Shown: positions 202 to 13,162 of the stretch, in pieces
How positions within the stretch are numbered: the stretch's first letter is position 1
Layout: each line of letters starts with the position of its first letter
Assembly (NCBI GenBank): GCA_947489085.1
Contig: CANLCJ010000034.1
Span: 1 to 43,196 of the forward strand
DNA from: an uncultured Flavobacteriaceae bacterium
GTDB taxonomy: Bacteria > Bacteroidota > Bacteroidia > Flavobacteriales > Flavobacteriaceae
Direction: 5' to 3'
Length of the DNA stretch: 43,196 nucleotides
The notes under the pieces: model-generated
Databases searched by the model: none
What the model saw: only the letters and a program-made list of their open reading frames with translations
Told to the model about the DNA's origin: nothing
Program-made: the position numbers and the translations under genes

Positions 202-1146
202 TTGAAAATAGTAAAACTTACATTTAATTATGAGTGGCCTTTATTTAGGCAAACTCCAAGTTTTTCTCAAGTTTGGGGAAATTATAAGTTTGTAATAGAT
301 GATAATTTAAAAGAATGCGATTACTGGATTATTTATTGCGATTATAAGTTAAAACGTGAAACAATTACTTGTCCCAAAGAACATGTAATTTTTATACCAG
401 GGGAATGTTATAATACAAGTCCTTATTTTTATAAGTCTTTCTTAAAACAATTTGGAGCTATAATTACAGTGCAGAGAGAAATAAAACATAAAAACGTAAT
501 ATATAGCCATAATGCAAATCCTTGGTTTATAAATAAGTCGTATGATGAATTAATTGACAACAGTGCCACAAAAAAAAATAAATTAATTTCGGTAATTACT
601 TCTAACAAGAATTTTACAGAGGGGCATAGAAAAAGATTAAATTTTGTCGAAATATTAAAAGCTCATTTTGGAGATCAATTGGATGTATTTGGTAGAGGAA
701 TAATGGACTTTGATGATAAATGGGAGGTGTTGTCCCAGTACAAATACTCCATAGCAATTGAGAATGATTTTTGTGAAGACTGGGTTACAGAAAAGTATTT
801 TGATTGCATTTTGGCTGAAACGGTACCAATATACTATGGATGCCCTAATATTAAATGTTATTCAAAGAATGACATTTCTGTAAAAATAGATATAAACGAA
901 CCAAAGGAAGCTATAAAAATTATAGAAGGAGCTATTAGTAATAATTTATATGAAAGCTATAAAAAAGCTCTAAAAGAGGAAAAGGTATATGTTTTAAATA
1001 ACGAGCAGTTTTTCCCTTGGATTGTAAATATTTTAAAAAAAATGGATTACAGTTTATATAAAGAGAATAGATTAAAATTAAATAAGCCATCTCGGTACAG
1101 TTTTAATATTTTAAAAAAGAAATTAAAATATCATCTCAAATTATGA
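202..1146 (+). CDS. GT10 family fucosyltransferase (alpha-1,3-type)
   Basis: Probably transfers L-fucose (or a related 6-deoxy sugar) from a GDP donor to a GlcNAc- or Glc-type acceptor in the glycan made by this locus, at the cytoplasmic face. The GT10 donor-site motif is clear at residues 180-215: KYSIAIEN, then DWVTEKYFD, then VPIYYGCP. The start is TTG. It is supported because the second GT10 of the window, at 6659, begins with a matching N-terminus (RQTP at residues 16-19 in both) from an ATG. At 314 residues it has normal bacterial length and no membrane anchor. The stop overlaps the next gene by 4 bp (ATGA), so the two are translationally coupled. Family assignment is firm. Linkage and donor are inferred, and because a ColD-type enzyme is encoded at 11990 the donor might be GDP-colitose. 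Confidence 0.9.
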   Translation: MKIVKLTFNYEWPLFRQTPSFSQVWGNYKFVIDDNLKECDYWIIYCDYKLKRETITCPKEHVIFIPGECYNTSPYFYKSFLKQFGAIITVQREIKHKNVIYSHNANPWFINKSYDELIDNSATKKNKLISVITSNKNFTEGHRKRLNFVEILKAHFGDQLDVFGRGIMDFDDKWEVLSQYKYSIAIENDFCEDWVTEKYFDCILAETVPIYYGCPNIKCYSKNDISVKIDINEPKEAIKIIEGAISNNLYESYKKALKEEKVYVLNNEQFFPWIVNILKKMDYSLYKENRLKLNKPSRYSFNILKKKLKYHLKL

Positions 1147-1817
1147 TAGTAAAAATTTTAAATTTAATTAAAAGAAAATTAAAGATAAAGACTCGAAAAC
1201 AGAAGCAGCATGAATTACAGTTTAAACGCTGTCAGCCATGGTTTAAAGCAAATGGCGATAATACTTTACGATTAGATTATCCATTAAATAAAAATGCTGT
1301 AGTTTTTGATTTAGGAGGATTTAAAGGTGAATTTGCAAATGAGATATACAATAAATACGAGTGTAATATTTATATTTTCGAACCCATATTGTCTTTCTAT
1401 GAACTAATAAAAGAGAAGTTTACTTTTACAGAAAAAGTAAAGCCATTTCAATATGGTTTAGCTGGAAAAGATGCGGAAATGCAAATAAGTTTAACAGACA
1501 ATTCGTCTTCAGTATATATAAAATCAAAAACAACAGAGACAATTAAACTTAAATCTATAGTGAGTTTTATCAAAGCGCATTCGATTCAGCATATAGATTT
1601 AATAAAAATAAATATCGAAGGAGGAGAATATGATGTTTTAGAATCATTAATAGAAAATAATATGTTGACACGCTTTACAGATATTCAAATTCAGTTCCAT
1701 GACTTTATAATCCCAAATGCAAAACAAAGAATGCAAAGTATTCAAAAAGAATTAGCCAAAACTCATAAGCTAACATATCAATATGAGTTTGTTTGGGAAA
1801 ATTGGACTCTAAAATAA
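1143..1817 (+). CDS. FkbM family SAM-dependent methyltransferase
   Basis: Likely O-methylates a sugar of the glycan or a lipid-linked intermediate. The SAM-binding motif is visible at about residues 53-62 (VFDLGGFKGEF), followed by the acidic loop IFEP near residue 78. The FkbM-type segment DLIKINIEGGEYDVLE lies near residues 152-167. The 224-residue length fits the family. The start ATG sits inside the stop of the preceding GT10 gene (ATGA), so both belong to the same transcript. FkbM proteins are common in capsule, O-antigen and flagellin glycan loci; the methylated position cannot be read from the sequence. Confidence 0.85.
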   Translation: MIVKILNLIKRKLKIKTRKQKQHELQFKRCQPWFKANGDNTLRLDYPLNKNAVVFDLGGFKGEFANEIYNKYECNIYIFEPILSFYELIKEKFTFTEKVKPFQYGLAGKDAEMQISLTDNSSSVYIKSKTTETIKLKSIVSFIKAHSIQHIDLIKINIEGGEYDVLESLIENNMLTRFTDIQIQFHDFIIPNAKQRMQSIQKELAKTHKLTYQYEFVWENWTLK

Positions 1818-1822
1818 TAATT

Positions 1823-2644
1823 TTGATAGTTGTAAAACTAATAGGAGGATTAGGAAATCAGATGTTTCAGTATGCAGCAGCTAAAGCATTGGCATTAGAA
1901 AAAAACCAAAATTTATACCTAGATACCAGTGCATTTAAAAATTACGATTTACACGCTTATGGCTTGCATCACTTTAATATAAGAGAAAAAAAGCATAAGC
2001 AACAACCTAAATGGTACAGAAAGATTCAAAATAAGTTAAAGCGTGTTACTACTTATAATGAAACGTCATTCCGATTTAATGCTAAGATTTTTGAAATTAA
2101 AACGAAGCATGTATTTTTAAATGGATACTTTCAATCGGAAGCTTATTTTCTAAAGTATAGAGAGCGTCTTTTAGAAGATTTTAAAATAACATCTGAGTTT
2201 AAATCAGAAACTAAAGCATTGCTCAAGGATATAAGCATTACAAATGCGATATCTATTCATATTAGAAGAGGCGATTTTTTAAAACATCACGTTCACAACA
2301 CGTCTAAAGAAGACTATTATAAAGCCGCAATGCAATACATTGAAAATAAAATAGAAAACCCAACCTATTACGTGTTTTCCGATGATATGGAATGGGTGAA
2401 AACTAATTTTAAAACCAATTACAAAACCATTTATGTAGATTTTAATGATGCTTTAACAGGATTTGAAGATTTAAAATTAATGTCGCATTGCCAACATAAT
2501 ATAATTGCCAATAGTAGTTTTAGTTGGTGGTCTGCATGGTTAAATACATATCCTAATAAAATCGTAATTGCTCCAGAACACTGGTTTAATGGAGATCAAT
2601 ACGATTATACAGATGTTGTGCCTAAAAGTTGGATAAAGATATAA
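1823..2644 (+). CDS. GT11 family glycosyltransferase (alpha-1,2-fucosyltransferase type)
   Basis: GT11 signature motifs are present: the N-terminal GGLGNQMFQYA, the central HIRRGDF that binds the GDP-sugar, YYVFSDD, and NSSFSWWSAWL near the C-terminus. Enzymes of this family usually move fucose to the 2-OH of galactose; some GT11 enzymes, such as WbgN of E. coli O55, are colitosyltransferases. The open frame extends to an ATG at 1793, which would overlap the FkbM gene by 25 bp and add ten residues (MGKLDSKIII) not typical of the family. The TTG at 1823 gives the standard start MIVVKLIGGLGNQ, lies 5 bp after the previous stop and makes a 273-residue protein. I prefer it. Donor (fucose or colitose) is unresolved. 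Confidence 0.88.
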   Translation: MIVVKLIGGLGNQMFQYAAAKALALEKNQNLYLDTSAFKNYDLHAYGLHHFNIREKKHKQQPKWYRKIQNKLKRVTTYNETSFRFNAKIFEIKTKHVFLNGYFQSEAYFLKYRERLLEDFKITSEFKSETKALLKDISITNAISIHIRRGDFLKHHVHNTSKEDYYKAAMQYIENKIENPTYYVFSDDMEWVKTNFKTNYKTIYVDFNDALTGFEDLKLMSHCQHNIIANSSFSWWSAWLNTYPNKIVIAPEHWFNGDQYDYTDVVPKSWIKI

Positions 2645-6658: not shown

Positions 6659-7639
6659 ATGTTAGTAAAAATATGTAGGTATTACAAGTATCCAGATATT
6701 AAACGCCAAACACCAAACATGTCTTTTACTTGGGGAGACATAGAGTTTACAGAGGCAGACGTGGACGAATGTGACTTTTTGGTAATTCTAGACTACCCAA
6801 AGCATGATTTTAAGGTAAAGGTTAATAAAAACAATATTTTACATATTTGTTTAGAGCCAGCAAACGAAATTTCTAAATACAGGCAGTACGCAAACAAACA
6901 AGTTGCACTAATTTATAATCAGATACGTAATAGAGGAAAATTCGTAAAATCTCACCCAGTATTACCATGGCATTTAGATAAAACCTACGATTACTTTAAA
7001 AAATTAAAACCTAGTGATTTACAAAAAGAAAACAAAATAGCTTGGGTTACTAGTAATCAACGTACATCAATACAACATAATAAAAGAATGGATTTCTTAG
7101 ACTCTATTATAGACTTGCCATTTATGGACATTTGTGGTAGAGGTATAAAAGCAGTAGAAAGCAAATGGGACGTTATGAAAACCGCAAAATATGCAATTGC
7201 TTACGAAAACTTTAAAAACCCATACAATTGGACCGAGAAAATATCAGACTGTTTTTTAAGTTACACAATACCACTATACTTTGGTTGTGAGCGTATAGAA
7301 GATTATTTCCCAAAAGAAGCTGTAATACAAATAGACCCCACAGATAAGCACATCAAGAAGTTTTTGCGAGAAACAGTAACATCAAAAAATTATAAACATC
7401 GAATTGAAGCTTTAGTAGAAGCAAGGAATTTGTTTTTAGATCGATACCAACTTTTTCCGTTTCTGGCAAATCAAATTCAAGCTACAGTATCAAGAGAAGG
7501 TATTTATAATACCTCAAAATTAAAGGAAGAATTTAGTTTTAAAGGCGGTAACGCTTACTTCGATAATTATCCTGTAATATTGGACGCAAAAAGACTGATT
7601 AGAAAAGCGAAAGCAAAGTTAAAAACTAAATTAAAGTAA
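6659..7639 (+). CDS. GT10 family fucosyltransferase (second copy)
   Basis: Second GT10 enzyme of the locus, 326 residues. The donor motif lies at residues 176-210 (KYAIAYENF, WTEKISDCF, TIPLYFGC), and IDICGRG-like MDICGRG at about 156-162 matches VFGRG of the copy at 202. The two proteins share architecture but are diverged, so they are paralogues with probably different acceptors, not a recent duplication. Lys/Arg-rich C-terminus (KRLIRKAKAKLKTKLK) suggests peripheral membrane binding, as in Helicobacter alpha-1,3-fucosyltransferases. ATG start, 11 bp after the previous gene. Confidence 0.9.
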   Translation: MLVKICRYYKYPDIKRQTPNMSFTWGDIEFTEADVDECDFLVILDYPKHDFKVKVNKNNILHICLEPANEISKYRQYANKQVALIYNQIRNRGKFVKSHPVLPWHLDKTYDYFKKLKPSDLQKENKIAWVTSNQRTSIQHNKRMDFLDSIIDLPFMDICGRGIKAVESKWDVMKTAKYAIAYENFKNPYNWTEKISDCFLSYTIPLYFGCERIEDYFPKEAVIQIDPTDKHIKKFLRETVTSKNYKHRIEALVEARNLFLDRYQLFPFLANQIQATVSREGIYNTSKLKEEFSFKGGNAYFDNYPVILDAKRLIRKAKAKLKTKLK

Positions 7640-7644
7640 ATTAA

Positions 7645-9084
7645 ATGCTTTTTAATTCCATAGACTTTGCAATATTTCTTCCATTGGTATTTATACTCTA
7701 TTGGAGTATTAATAAGTACAATTTAAAGTTTCAAAATGCATTACTGGTCTTGGCAAGTTACGTGTTTTATGGTTGGTGGGATTGGAGATTTTTAACCTTA
7801 ATTATATTTAGCTCTCTAATAGACTATATAATAGGCGTGAAATTAGGAGAGATTAAAAACAAGAGTAAACGTAAAGCATTACTGTGGATTAGTATTTTAA
7901 TTAACCTAGGAATCTTAACTACGTTTAAATACTATAACTTTTTTGTTGATAATTTTGTGAGTGCATTTTCTTGGTTTGGAAAAGATATAAAACCAAATAC
8001 GCTAGATGTTATTTTGCCAGTAGGGATTAGCTTCTATACATTTCAAACCTTAAGTTATACTATTGATGTGTATCGTAAAAAGTTAAAACCAACCAAGCAC
8101 ATCATATCTTTTTTGGCTTTTGTTAGTTTTTTTCCGCAATTGGTGGCAGGGCCTATAGAACGCGCCACACATTTACTGCCTCAATTTTACAAAAAACGAC
8201 AATTCCACTATTCAAAAGCCATTAACGGTTGTAAACAAATGCTCTGGGGTTTTTTTAAGAAAATAGTTATCGCAGACACCTGTGCGCAATATGTAAATAT
8301 AATATTTGAGAATTATCAGGATTATTCAGGAAGCACACTGTTTGTAGGCGCACTGTTCTTTACATTTCAAATTTATGGAGATTTCTCGGGGTATTCAGAT
8401 ATTGCCATAGGCACATCTAGATTGTTTGGATTCGATTTACAGCAAAATTTTGCATTTCCATATTTTTCAAGAGATATTGCAGAATTTTGGAGACGCTGGC
8501 ATATCTCACTATCAACATGGTTTAGAGACTATTTATATATTCCCTTAGGAGGAAGTAAAGGAGGCAATTGGACGAAAATACGAAACACATTCCTTATTTT
8601 TTTAGTGAGTGGTTTTTGGCATGGTGCAAATTGGACATTTATAGTATGGGGAGGCTTAAATGCTATATATTTTTTACCATTACAACTTACCAAGCGCAAT
8701 AGGAATAACTTAAAAATTGTAGCTTACAACCGCATGTTTCCAAGTGCTAAAGACATAGTTAGAATTTTTATAACCTTCAGTTTAACAGTAGTAGCATGGA
8801 TATTTTTTAGAGCAAAAACAGTAGCTATAGCAGTTGATTATATAGAAAAATTAGTTTCTAAAAGTTTATTTAGTATTCCTGAAATTAGACCTACAAACGT
8901 ATTAGCTTTCATTGTATTTTTCATGGGGGTTGAATGGGTAGGGCGTCGACAAAAGTACGCTTTAGAAACCATCTTAATAAATCAAACAAAAGCATTACGT
9001 TGGGGATTTTACTTTTTTTTATTAGCAGTAATATTAATGTACAGTAACACAGCACAACAAGAATTTATATATTTTCAGTTTTAA
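7645..9084 (+). CDS. MBOAT family membrane O-acyltransferase (AlgI/DltB-like)
   Basis: Polytopic membrane protein of 479 residues. It carries the MBOAT hallmarks FWRRWHISLSTWFRDYLYIPLGG (H286) and the catalytic SGFWHGANW (H326). YTFQTLSYTIDVYR near 131-144 and PQLVAGPIERA near 164-174 are also family typical. In AlgI systems such a protein passes acetyl groups across the membrane to an SGNH-type partner that acetylates the exported polysaccharide. The next gene, 3 bp downstream, encodes such a partner. The pair therefore probably O-acetylates the polymer of this locus at the periplasmic side. Confidence 0.93.
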   Translation: MLFNSIDFAIFLPLVFILYWSINKYNLKFQNALLVLASYVFYGWWDWRFLTLIIFSSLIDYIIGVKLGEIKNKSKRKALLWISILINLGILTTFKYYNFFVDNFVSAFSWFGKDIKPNTLDVILPVGISFYTFQTLSYTIDVYRKKLKPTKHIISFLAFVSFFPQLVAGPIERATHLLPQFYKKRQFHYSKAINGCKQMLWGFFKKIVIADTCAQYVNIIFENYQDYSGSTLFVGALFFTFQIYGDFSGYSDIAIGTSRLFGFDLQQNFAFPYFSRDIAEFWRRWHISLSTWFRDYLYIPLGGSKGGNWTKIRNTFLIFLVSGFWHGANWTFIVWGGLNAIYFLPLQLTKRNRNNLKIVAYNRMFPSAKDIVRIFITFSLTVVAWIFFRAKTVAIAVDYIEKLVSKSLFSIPEIRPTNVLAFIVFFMGVEWVGRRQKYALETILINQTKALRWGFYFFLLAVILMYSNTAQQEFIYFQF

Positions 9085-9087
9085 AAA

Positions 9088-10005
9088 ATGAAACGCTTTA
9101 TAAAAAACATATTTTTATTTGTAGTTCTGTTTTTCTTCATAGAAAAAATGGCATGGTTACTTCTTGTAAATGGCGTAGAAAAACAATTCGACAAGCGTCT
9201 AAAAAATATCGTAACCGGGCAAATAAATAAAGAACTCATAATTTTAGGTTCTTCAAGAGGTATTGGTAATATAATTGCAGGCAAACTTCAACAAGAAACC
9301 AGCTTAACCACTCACAATTTATCTTATCACGGGTCTAACGTTATATTTCACGAATACATTTTAAAATTATTTTTAAAATATAATAAAACACCAAAAGTAA
9401 TTATTCTAACCATAGACAATCCAAGTGAATTTTTGGAAGACAAAAGCATAACGTTTAGAGAAGACATGCTAAAGCCATTTACAAGATACAATTGTATTAA
9501 TAATACTTTAATAGAAAGAGGTGTTCATAGTAGCCTTTCTTCACTGTTATTCACTGCTAGGCTACATGGTTCTCATTTTTTTACCAACAAAAAAGAACCC
9601 CATAAAAATAATCCAATGGATAGTTTAGGTACTATGCCTCTTTTAGAAAAAACGAGTTTATACTTGTTTTACGATAAACAAGTAAAACCCTATAAAATTA
9701 TAGAAGAACAAGACGCTAAGTTAAAAGCCTTCGAAAACATACAACATTTGTGTAAAACGAATAATATTATACTGGTTTATGCTATTCCGCCGAGTTTTAA
9801 CACTTTTAATTATAACTTTTACAAACGTTTTAAAACTTTAGTAGAAGAGAGGCATATTATGGTTTACGATACCTTAAAGTCTGAATATAAGGATACAGCA
9901 TATTATTTTGACGAATCGCACCTACTTAAAAAAGGGGCTGAAATATTCACAACAGAAATTAGTACATTTATCAACCAAAATACAGACATAAACCCTCAAG
10001 AATGA
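9088..10005 (+). CDS. membrane-anchored SGNH-hydrolase-like protein, MBOAT partner
   Basis: 305 residues with an N-terminal membrane segment (about residues 6-27) and a periplasmic domain. GSSR at 54-57 fits the nucleophile block of SGNH/GDSL enzymes, an asparagine-containing SYHGSNV follows near residue 80, and DESH at 275-278 supplies the Asp-x-x-His of block V. This is the layout of AlgJ/AlgX/DltD-like partners of MBOAT proteins, though overall similarity to those named families is low. Its place directly after the MBOAT gene supports the role. The stop overlaps gmd by 4 bp (ATGA). Hydrolase or esterase activity in place of transfer cannot be excluded. Confidence 0.65.
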
Positions 10006-11063
10006 AAACAGCCCTAATTACAGGTATAAATGGACAAGACGGTTCGTATTTGGCAGAATTACTTTTAGATAAAGGCTACGAAGTACACGGCATTATAAGA
10101 AGAAGTTCTACATTTAATACAGAACGTATTGAACACCTTTACATAGATACGCTACTTAAGGATTTGCATGAAAAGCAGAATATAAAATTGCATTACGGAG
10201 ATATGACGGATGGATCTAATCTCATTCGGTTAGTACAAGAACTCCAACCAAACGAAATCTATAACCTAGCAGCACAATCCCATGTTAAAGTATCCTTTGA
10301 TTTGCCAGAATATACAGCAGAGGCAGATGGAATAGGCACGCTAAAATTATTAGAAGCTATAAGAATTTGTGGTTTAGTAGATAAAACAAGAATCTACCAA
10401 GCATCTACGTCTGAGTTATACGGCAAAGTCCAAGAAATTCCGCAAACAGAAACAACACCATTTTATCCAAGATCTCCTTATGGTGTAGCAAAGTTATATG
10501 CATTTTGGATAACCAAAAACTATAGAGAATCTTATGGAATGTATGCTGTAAATGGTATTTTATTCAATCACGAATCGGAGCGCAGAGGCGAAACCTTTGT
10601 AACTCGAAAAATAACTTTAGGAGCTGCGCGAATAGCTAATGGCATACAAGACAAATTGTATTTAGGTAACTTAGATGCAAAGCGAGATTGGGGGTATGCC
10701 AAAGATTATGTAGAATGTATGTGGCTAATGTTACAACAACAAGAGCCAGAAGATTATGTTATTGGTACAGGAGAGCAACATACAGTTAGAGAGTTTTGTG
10801 AATTGGCATTTAATGAAGCAGGAATTACTATAAAATGGGAAGGAGAAGGTAAAGCAGAAAAAGGTATAGATGAAAAAACAGGAAAAACCTTAATCCAAAT
10901 AGATCCCAATTATTACCGGTTGGCAGAAGTAGAAACCCTTTTAGGAAATCCAGCAAAGGCAAAGCAAAATTTAGGATGGAACCCCAACAAAACGTCATTT
11001 AAACAACTTGTAGAAATAATGATGGCACACGATTTAAAATATGTGCTAAAACAAAACATGTAA
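10002..11063 (+). CDS. gmd: GDP-mannose 4,6-dehydratase
   Basis: Converts GDP-D-mannose to GDP-4-keto-6-deoxy-D-mannose, the branch point to GDP-L-fucose, GDP-colitose, GDP-rhamnose and GDP-perosamine. It is a short-chain dehydrogenase fold: NAD(P) loop [11 protein letters not shown] at 7-17, catalytic T136/E138 in STSELYG, and Y160-x3-K164 in SPYGVAK. The Gmd-specific [12 protein letters not shown] follows near residue 190. Length 353 is normal. It begins in the stop of the SGNH-like gene and is followed 7 bp later by the fcl-like gene, forming the GDP-6-deoxyhexose module. No manB/manC is present in the locus, so GDP-mannose must come from elsewhere. Confidence 0.97.
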
Positions 11064-11070
11064 ACGTAAT

Positions 11071-11997
11071 ATGAAAATCCTCTTAACAGGTCATAGCGGT
11101 ATGGTAGGGCAAAACATATTGGAACACCATAAAGCTCAAAACTATACTTTTTTAACCCCCAAAAGCACGACTCTAAATTTAGAACACAAATTAGAGGTAG
11201 AAGCTTATATAGAAGCGCATAAACCAGATTTGGTTATACATGCAGCAGGTATGGTGGGAGGTATTCAAGCAAATATAGCACACCCTGTAGATTTTTTAAT
11301 AAAAAATTTAGATATGGGTAAGCACATTATTATGGCAGCAAAAAAGCATAAAATTAAATCTTTAATTAATTTATCAAGCTCATGCATGTACCCACGTTTA
11401 GCACAAAATCCTTTAAAGGAAAGTGAGATTCTTAAAGGAGAATTAGAGCCAACTAACGAAGGTTATGCTTTAGCAAAGATAGTAACAACGCGATTATGTG
11501 AGTACATAGTAAAAGAAAGCCCAACCTATAATTATAAAACAGTAATTCCATGTAATCTGTATGGGAGGTACGATAAGTTTTCACCTAAACACTCTCACAT
11601 GATTCCTGCAGTTATAAAAAAAATTCACGACGCAAAAACTCGTAAAGACAAGGAAGTAGAGATATGGGGAGATGGCCAAGCCAGACGAGAGTTTATGTAT
11701 GCAGAAGATTTGGCAGATTTTATTTTTTATACTATTGAACACTTAGAAAAATTACCACAAAATTTGAATGTAGGTTTAGGGAGCGACTGGACAATTAATG
11801 AGTACTACCAAACCATTGCAGATGTAGTTGGTTATAAGGGCGTATTTAAGCATGACCTTACCAAACCAGTTGGTATGAAACAAAAATTAATAGACAATGA
11901 AAAGCTAACTGCATTTGGTTGGAAAGCTAGAACCTCGTTAAAAGAAGGCATAGAAAAAACATATGCATATTATAAAAACGCTATTTTAAATGATTAA
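11071..11997 (+). CDS. fcl: GDP-L-fucose synthase-like epimerase/reductase (Fcl or ColC type)
   Basis: NADPH-dependent 3,5-epimerase/4-reductase that would make GDP-L-fucose from the Gmd product. Visible residues: GHSGMVG cofactor loop at 7-13, SSSCMYP with S103/S104 and C105, Y132-x3-K136, and H176 in SHMIPA (the position of the second acid/base in Fcl). All catalytic positions of Fcl are kept. ColC, which makes GDP-L-colitose by 5-epimerisation and 4-reduction, is a homologue, and the next gene (8 bp overlap) is ColD-like. The protein could therefore serve either pathway or both. Length 308 is normal. Family is certain; substrate is not. Confidence 0.9.
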   Translation: MKILLTGHSGMVGQNILEHHKAQNYTFLTPKSTTLNLEHKLEVEAYIEAHKPDLVIHAAGMVGGIQANIAHPVDFLIKNLDMGKHIIMAAKKHKIKSLINLSSSCMYPRLAQNPLKESEILKGELEPTNEGYALAKIVTTRLCEYIVKESPTYNYKTVIPCNLYGRYDKFSPKHSHMIPAVIKKIHDAKTRKDKEVEIWGDGQARREFMYAEDLADFIFYTIEHLEKLPQNLNVGLGSDWTINEYYQTIADVVGYKGVFKHDLTKPVGMKQKLIDNEKLTAFGWKARTSLKEGIEKTYAYYKNAILND

Positions 11998-13162
11998 ATA
12001 TCCATTAGCCACATCTACATGGGATACTAACGAATTAGAAGCCATACAAGAAGTTATAGATAGTGATATGTATACTATGGGGAAGTACGTATCACAATTT
12101 GAAACAGAATTTGCTCAATTTATAGACGCCAAGTATGCTGTAATGGTAAACTCAGGATCTTCTGCAAACCTATTGGCAGTAGCAGCATTGTTTTACACTA
12201 AAAATCCAAAATTAAAACGAGGAGACGAAGTTATAGTACCAGCCGTATCTTGGAGTACAACGTACTTTCCTTTGTATCAATACGGATTAAAGTTAAAGTT
12301 TGTAGATGTAGACTTAGAAACTTTAAATTTCGATTTAGAGCAGTTAGAAAGAGCAATAACCCCCAATACTAAAATGATTTTTGCAGTAAATCTGCTAGGT
12401 AATCCCAATGATTTTCAAAAAATAGAAGCTTTAATAGAAAATAAAAATATTATTCTTCTTGAAGACAATTGCGAATCTATGGGAGCAGAGTACAATGGAA
12501 AACAAGCTGGAACTTTTGGAATAATGGGAACTTTTTCGACCTTTTTCTCACACCATATGGCTACTATGGAAGGCGGTTTAGTAGTAACAGATAACGAAGA
12601 ATTATACCATGTTTTAATAGCGCTGCGCGCGCATGGCTGGACTCGACACTTGCCTAAAGAAAATCAAGTTAGTAATAAAACAAACGATTGGTTTAAAGAG
12701 TCGTTTCGTTTCGTTTTGCCGGGATACAATTTACGCCCTGTAGAAATGTCTGGAGCTATAGGCATAAAACAACTGCAAAAATTGCCGAATTTTTTAAAAG
12801 TAAGACGCGAAAATGCCAGTTATTTTATAAAAAGATTTAAAAACCATCCCGATTTTTACACGCAAAAAGAAATATCTAAAAGCAGTTGGTTTGGTTTTAG
12901 TTTGATTATAAGACCAGAGTCTAAGCTAAAACGACAAAAAATTACAGAAGTATTAAAAGCAAAACAAATAGACTGTAGACCAATTGTAACGGGAGATTTT
13001 ACAAAGAATGAAGTGTTAAAGTATTTTGATTATGAGATATTTGGAGAGATGAAGCATGCAAAATATTTGGATGAACACGGTTTTTTTGTAGGGAATCACC
13101 AAATAGATTTAAAACAACAAATAGATTATCTCTATGAGGTACTTAAACCAAAACCACTTTAA
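11990..13162 (+). CDS. colD: ColD-type GDP-4-keto-6-deoxy-D-mannose 3-dehydratase (DegT/DnrJ/EryC1/StrS fold)
   Basis: PLP enzyme of 390 residues with the fold of sugar aminotransferases. The lysine that normally holds PLP is replaced: the segment around 183-195 reads STFFSHHMATMEG, with S187 and H188. In E. coli ColD the same two positions, S187 and H188, mark the dehydratase, and changing both to Asn/Lys is known to turn it into an aminotransferase. D159 (LLEDNCES), which pairs with the PLP ring nitrogen, is also kept. It lacks the iron-sulfur insertion of the longer E1 dehydratases. Expected reaction: glutamate-dependent removal of the 3-OH of the Gmd product, the committed step to GDP-colitose. 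It overlaps the fcl/colC-like gene by 8 bp. Automatic annotation as an aminotransferase would be misleading. Overall confidence in 3-dehydration is high; colitose as end product is inferred from neighbours. Confidence 0.85.
   Translation: MIKYPLATSTWDTNELEAIQEVIDSDMYTMGKYVSQFETEFAQFIDAKYAVMVNSGSSANLLAVAALFYTKNPKLKRGDEVIVPAVSWSTTYFPLYQYGLKLKFVDVDLETLNFDLEQLERAITPNTKMIFAVNLLGNPNDFQKIEALIENKNIILLEDNCESMGAEYNGKQAGTFGIMGTFSTFFSHHMATMEGGLVVTDNEELYHVLIALRAHGWTRHLPKENQVSNKTNDWFKESFRFVLPGYNLRPVEMSGAIGIKQLQKLPNFLKVRRENASYFIKRFKNHPDFYTQKEISKSSWFGFSLIIRPESKLKRQKITEVLKAKQIDCRPIVTGDFTKNEVLKYFDYEIFGEMKHAKYLDEHGFFVGNHQIDLKQQIDYLYEVLKPKPL

Follow-up and report, generated by a model that had tools for sequence, protein, structure and literature searches.

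We propose that the open reading frame at 11990-13162 of the window (the whole 43,196-nucleotide stretch of DNA analysed here, from an uncultured Flavobacteriaceae bacterium) is colD, and that together with the adjoining gmd and colC genes it very probably forms a three-gene module making GDP-L-colitose, the nucleotide-activated form of a rare sugar found on bacterial surfaces. The original prediction of a ColD-type 3-dehydratase within such a module is supported by a ColD tree, by a Gmd score above its model's cut-off and by the position of the reductase in the ColC branch, all of them sequence comparisons. With this assignment, the generic aminotransferase label on the gene gives way to a specific chemistry. 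Profile and identity comparisons also bear out that gmd and an Fcl/ColC homologue adjoin colD, as had been claimed:

10002..11063, + strand: gmd, GDP-D-mannose 4,6-dehydratase (step 1); NCBIfam TIGR01472, 579.7 bits, cut-off 415
11071..11997, + strand: colC, C5-epimerase/C4-ketoreductase of the GDP-L-colitose synthase type (step 3); 58% identical to E. coli ColC, in the ColC branch
11990..13162, + strand: colD, PMP/PLP-dependent GDP-4-keto-6-deoxy-D-mannose 3-dehydratase (step 2); 390 residues, ColD homology with S187, H188 and D159

In the pathway that we envisage, Gmd would convert GDP-mannose to GDP-4-keto-6-deoxy-D-mannose. ColD with bound PMP would then form a Schiff base at the 4-keto group, H188 would take a proton and the C3 hydroxyl would leave; hydrolysis would yield a 3-deoxy ketosugar and ammonia, and L-glutamate would recharge PLP to PMP. 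ColC would invert C5 and reduce C4 to give GDP-L-colitose, which might enter a surface polysaccharide through transferases encoded in the same cluster of ~28 kb, with the GT11 and GT10 enzymes as the likeliest candidates. Inferred here are the catalytic steps, the donors used by the transferases and a colitose-containing glycan. A passage of PMC8987622 outlines the mechanism of ColD itself in these terms, with a PMP Schiff base, histidine-mediated loss of the C3 hydroxyl, hydrolysis and recharging by glutamate, and without an Fe-S cluster.

The E. coli O55 and O111 clusters carry gmd, colC and colD of the same enzyme types, and there too colC lies directly upstream of colD and overlaps it. Identities to the window proteins are 64-65% for ColD, 58% for ColC and 63% for Gmd (the last for locus L011). 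Compared for the named enzymes only, the window differs from E. coli O55/O111 in having gmd directly upstream of colC, and also in that the cluster annotation shows no manB or manC beside the trio.

Active site and family of the ColD protein

The match of the 11990-13162 product to ColD is far beyond chance. In a search of solved structures the best hit was ColD (2gms; 577.3 bits, E 1.5e-172), and the four best distinct sequences were ColD and its active-site variants, at 571.7-577.3 bits. E1-type dehydratases followed at 179-183 bits, then two other aminotransferases at 131-145 bits and, at 116 bits, the perosamine synthase 3bn1. Like the window protein, which diverges from 2gms by about 35% in sequence, solved ColD and its variants have the same length and S187/H188/D159, and could not accommodate a four-cysteine Fe-S site. 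Identity to three E. coli ColD proteins from complete genomes was 64-65%, with S187 and H188 invariant across the resulting four-row alignment.

The alignments confirm the proposal that Ser187-His188 occupies the site of the PLP lysine and that D159 is kept; His188 stands in place of the PLP-binding lysine of GDP-perosamine synthase. In E. coli ColD, an Asn/Lys double change reportedly yields an aminotransferase, and PDB entry 3gr9 has Asn-Lys at positions 187-188 in the solved-structure alignment. The predicted length of 390 residues without an Fe-S insertion was likewise borne out, and the only cysteines, C161 and C329, are too few for an E1-style [2Fe-2S] site, which a passage of PMC8987622 describes as built from four cysteines.

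Phylogeny placed the protein with the dehydratases. Our tree (run, like the Fcl/ColC tree below, in quick mode with SH-aLRT support only) comprised 114 rows: the window ColD, 87 other ColD-type proteins, 12 other His-type proteins and 14 lysine-type aminotransferases. Ser-His was found at 187-188 in 87/87 of the other ColD-type rows, and lysine at column 188 in 14/14 of the aminotransferases. All 88 ColD-type rows, including the window and E. coli proteins, formed one branch (support 98) and the lysine-type rows were set apart (support 99); the 12 other His-type rows lay outside the ColD-type branch, and only one of them has serine at 187. Clustering with lysine-containing aminotransferases, which had been named beforehand as grounds for refutation, did not occur in this tree, perosamine synthase being compared by score only. 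Within a 51-row branch that also holds ColD-like proteins of the Campylobacter loci L050, L052 and L053, the window ColD and eight Flavobacteriaceae rows that have ColC formed a group of their own (support 97).

To enter the tree, a ColD-type hit had to align over more than 350 residues, and hits in general had to exceed 60 bits and 250 residues; the source-genome loci L001-L004 were exempt from these limits. Further copies from that genome (L005, L012, L015, L019) were left out. The lysine rows L004 and L017 are overlapping stretches of the source genome and probably one gene, and in each of the two trees L021 is identical to L028 and L023 to L051. Several lysine-type rows and two other His-type rows sit on very long branches. 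A CxCxxC Fe-S pattern occurred in 0/12 other His-type and 0/90 ColD-type rows and was uninformative; cysteine count and length were used in its place.

Partner reductases and rival products

The product of 11071-11997 shares 58% identity with E. coli ColC and 39% with E. coli K-12 Fcl. With the NCBIfam Fcl model, run on the window protein, it reaches 322.7 bits, below the cut-off of 500, a shortfall that is weak evidence alone. A 129-row tree fell into a ColC side of 76 rows and an Fcl side of 53, the division having an SH-aLRT support of 100, and the identity comparison reproduced the split. The ColC side contains the window ColC and three E. coli ColC proteins, all its other rows coming from ColD-bearing loci. 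The other side contains E. coli Fcl, 30 rows that an Fcl query retrieved from genomes of the family (0/30 in the ColC branch), 7 reductases whose genes immediately precede colD in loci of Campylobacter, Helicobacter, Mailhella and Brachyspira, and 15 further rows from ColD loci. Hits below 130 bits or 230 residues were dropped, and L099, L087, L081, L125 and L066 are long branches of unsure place. The sample is lopsided by design: ColD loci supplied 97/127 fetched rows and the Fcl query the remaining 30, which in part predetermines the tie between the ColC type and ColD. A less biased search of 149 family genomes, in which 30 of the matches were placed in the tree, found identities to Fcl at the ColC level (38-41%) in G000, G002 and G059; all three have ColD.

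At 11803-11808 the window ColC carries Tyr-Tyr (residues 245-246), and tyrosine occupies these positions in 76/76 and 75/76 ColC rows; the Fcl rows mostly have leucine (47/53) and alanine (49/53). This pair is a possible sequence signature separating ColC from Fcl. Seven ColD-type genes have an Fcl-branch reductase, not ColC, directly upstream (L044, L050, L052, L053, L067, L074 and L081, the last being one of the long branches of unsure place). They are candidates for the synthesis of dideoxyheptose or other 3-deoxy sugars, and two of them lie outside Campylobacterota. In this sample, the branch of the partner reductase, ColC or Fcl, appears to show which of the two pathways, colitose or dideoxyheptose, a locus encodes.

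Resemblance to ColD does not by itself settle which sugar is made or which substrate is used, because ColD-like enzymes of C. jejuni act on GDP-heptose; the neighbours gmd and colC therefore decide. A passage of PMC10440746 describes the GDP-3,6-dideoxyheptose module of C. jejuni HS:5 and HS:11, which shares with the window a ColD-family C3-dehydratase (the C. jejuni enzymes are 62-67% identical to ColD and act on GDP-6-deoxy-4-keto-heptose). That module uses GDP-heptose and a separate C5-epimerase and C4-reductase, where the window has a GDP-mannose-type Gmd and ColC. We consider it very unlikely that the window C3-dehydratase serves such a 3,6-dideoxyheptose pathway, derived from GDP-manno-heptose, even though its identity to ColD-like proteins from ColC-lacking Campylobacter loci (L050, L052, L053, L056, L061) is 72-73%, higher than that to E. 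coli ColD, and it belongs to the same 51-row branch as those of L050, L052 and L053. Against this reading, the 4,6-dehydratase clears the GDP-mannose cut-off and shares 28-29% identity with its closest Gmd-like counterparts in L050, L052 and L053; the window reductase is of the ColC type, whereas in all three of these loci the reductase encoded directly upstream of ColD belongs to the Fcl branch; and inside the common branch the window ColD sides with its ColC-bearing Flavobacteriaceae relatives. That the gene encodes a lysine-type aminotransferase relative making an amino sugar, such as GDP-perosamine synthase, is hardly credible: the Pfam family DegT_DnrJ_EryC1 (268 bits), with its generic label, is common to both, but lysine is replaced by H188, the match to perosamine synthases reaches 116 bits and that to ColD 577, and the lysine rows form a separate branch in a tree that holds no perosamine synthase row. 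We give equally little credence to an E1/RfbH-type [2Fe-2S] dehydratase yielding a CDP-linked 3,6-dideoxyhexose. Such enzymes have the active-site histidine in common with the window protein, on which the RfbH model scores 280 bits (cut-off 423), yet solved E1 chains have 437 residues as opposed to 390 with two cysteines, and their scores fall far short of that of ColD; the ColD-type branch excludes the other His-type rows, most of which lack Ser187, and the neighbouring genes encode GDP-sugar enzymes.

The cluster contains two GT10 genes and one GT11 gene, and the window ColC residues S103, C105, Y132, K136 and H176 are the counterparts of Fcl S107, C109, Y136, K140 and H179, which we take to be the Fcl catalytic Ser-Tyr-Lys and Cys/His residues. 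Both observations would fit a module that mainly makes GDP-L-fucose, with ColC as a fucose synthase for GT10 and GT11 and ColD inactive or dispensable, as would the ability of the E. coli GT11 enzyme WbgN, an alpha-1,2-colitosyltransferase, to take GDP-fucose besides GDP-colitose, described in passages of PMC12723683 and PMC11987014. We nevertheless regard this as very unlikely, since ColD is intact at the tested active-site residues and conserved beside colC, and since the three ColC-level matches in the 149 family genomes all occur in genomes with ColD. The E. coli K-12 gmd-fcl pair for GDP-fucose starts with the same type of enzyme (61% identical) and also includes a related reductase, but K-12 Fcl lies in the other branch from the window ColC, and the fetched K-12 stretch (L107) gave no ColD match. 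ColC may form some GDP-fucose as well.

Transferases and the wider cluster

The source draft genome (98.6% complete, 135 contigs) encodes one Gmd and one Fcl/ColC protein; its next Gmd match reaches 30% identity and 53 bits, and the model for fucokinase/GDP-fucose pyrophosphorylase (fucose salvage) found no match in it. A mannose-1-phosphate guanylyltransferase-type match scores 289.6 bits, below the two-domain model's cut-off of 372.95. Nine ColD-bearing flavobacterial genomes have a single Fcl/ColC homologue each (at E 1e-20), 38-42% identical to Fcl and always ColC, and in 9/9 the fucose salvage model found nothing over its cut-off, with weak partial matches in three. The following genes surround the trio:

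202..1146, + strand: GT10 transferase, candidate colitosyltransferase; PF00852, 49.6 bits, cut-off 23.9
1793..2644, + strand: GT11 transferase, candidate colitosyltransferase; PF01531, 119.8 bits, E. coli O55 WbgN family
6659..7639, + strand: GT10 transferase, candidate colitosyltransferase; PF00852, 33.6 bits, cut-off 23.9
7645..9084, + strand: MBOAT O-acyltransferase, probably acylating the glycan; PF03062, 99 bits; 67-72% in L027-L031
13221..14375, + strand: cytidylyltransferase fused to a KdsC-type phosphatase; PF02348 and TIGR01670; 68-79% in L027-L031
14388..15263, + strand: NeuB-family nonulosonate synthase; PF03102, 226.5 bits, the sole Pfam match; 82-85% in L027-L031
25119..26474, + strand: Wzy/ligase-type membrane protein; PF04932, 50.6 bits
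27507..28898, + strand: polyprenol-phosphate sugar-1-phosphate transferase, presumably for chain initiation; PF02397, 209.1 bits

The GT10 and GT11 'fucosyltransferases' of this cluster are candidate colitosyltransferases that would use GDP-colitose, and they may accept both GDP-colitose and GDP-fucose. The GT11 protein is 36% identical to the product of the alpha-1,2-fucosyltransferase gene of the E. coli O55-type cluster L010, and 12/80 fetched loci hold homologues at 35% or more. The GT10 protein encoded at 6659-7639 has a 70-76% homologue in L027, L028 and L029. Among the nine ColD-bearing flavobacterial genomes, four contain GT10, with seven matches that each lie 3.7 to 12.8 kb from colC; the remaining five lack any match to GT10, which therefore cannot serve as colitosyltransferase throughout these genomes. 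An FkbM-type methyltransferase gene at 1143-1817 overlaps the GT11 frame as called from a TTG start, and in L030 an 82% FkbM-type homologue adjoins an 81% GT11 homologue.

The initiating transferase and the Wzy/ligase-type protein fit a surface polysaccharide locus. Gene order in L027-L031 is as in the window (MBOAT, ORF 9088, gmd, colC, colD, cytidylyltransferase-phosphatase, NeuB-family gene, ORF 15272), with several transferases around the conserved block, which places a colitose module beside a nonulosonate-type module in these loci. The cytidylyltransferase-phosphatase fusion would serve the glycan's second sugar, of the nonulosonate type, and its position next to NeuB suggests that a CMP-nonulosonate is made via a 9-phosphate intermediate. 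The NeuB-family protein (291 residues) has no SAF domain match in Pfam; its nearest solved relative is 6ncs, a 290-residue chain called N-acetylneuraminic acid synthetase, and the short NeuB form is therefore already known.

A possibility that we rate a little short of even is that the flavobacterial GT10s and the GT11 are natural colitosyltransferases, building a Lewis-like glycan of colitose and nonulosonic acid in which colitose replaces fucose, in genomes that appear to make GDP-colitose and no GDP-fucose. In Helicobacter mesocricetorum (L058, 7153-7956) a partial GT10 match (34%, 117 residues) lies directly beside gmd-colC-colD. This adds another setting in which GT10 is associated with the colitose module. 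Among the papers listed by a literature search on GT10 and colitose, none had a colitose hit. If the proposal is true, 'fucosyltransferase' labels in such clusters misname the donor, and predicted glycans should carry colitose.

Distribution of the trio

A scan of genome contigs yielded 566 confirmed stretches, the best 80 of which were kept; these include Flavobacteriaceae (among them Aurantibacter aestuarii, L028), Campylobacterota, Pseudomonadota, Bdellovibrionota and others. Among the best 80, gmd is present at 50% identity or more in 69, an Fcl/ColC-like gene lies directly upstream of colD in 65 (in 58 of these nearer to E. coli ColC than to Fcl), and both occur together in 57. A ColC-type gene is found in 68 of the 80 loci and is missing from 12, one of which (L085) is only a 5.7-kb contig. 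Within the family, a ColD search matched 5/299 genomes at E <1e-190 and three more at 34-37% identity, and the one other genome listed for the same genus gave no ColD match at E 1e-60; the module is thus patchy in the family. The colitose trio is widespread, and there is good evidence that the flavobacterial trio represents known chemistry.

Marine bacteria offer an outside point of consistency with a GDP-L-colitose module, since a Colwellia relative carries the trio (L093) and a passage of PMC8914368 reports colitose chemically in C. psychrerythraea 34H; another marine report, in a passage of PMC4052302, concerns Pseudoalteromonas. A genome-wide survey of sugar pathways remarks, in a passage of PMC7725333, that L-colitose is absent from one archaeal group, which implies that it scored the colitose pathway across phyla, and it may already predict the pathway for Bacteroidetes. 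Among the papers listed by searches of the open-licence literature under family, genus and phylum names, none was recognised as a report of colitose from a flavobacterium. Colitose would not be unexpected in the host, which is a Gram-negative flavobacterium, and the colitose module that has been well studied in enteric bacteria can now be placed in Flavobacteriaceae.
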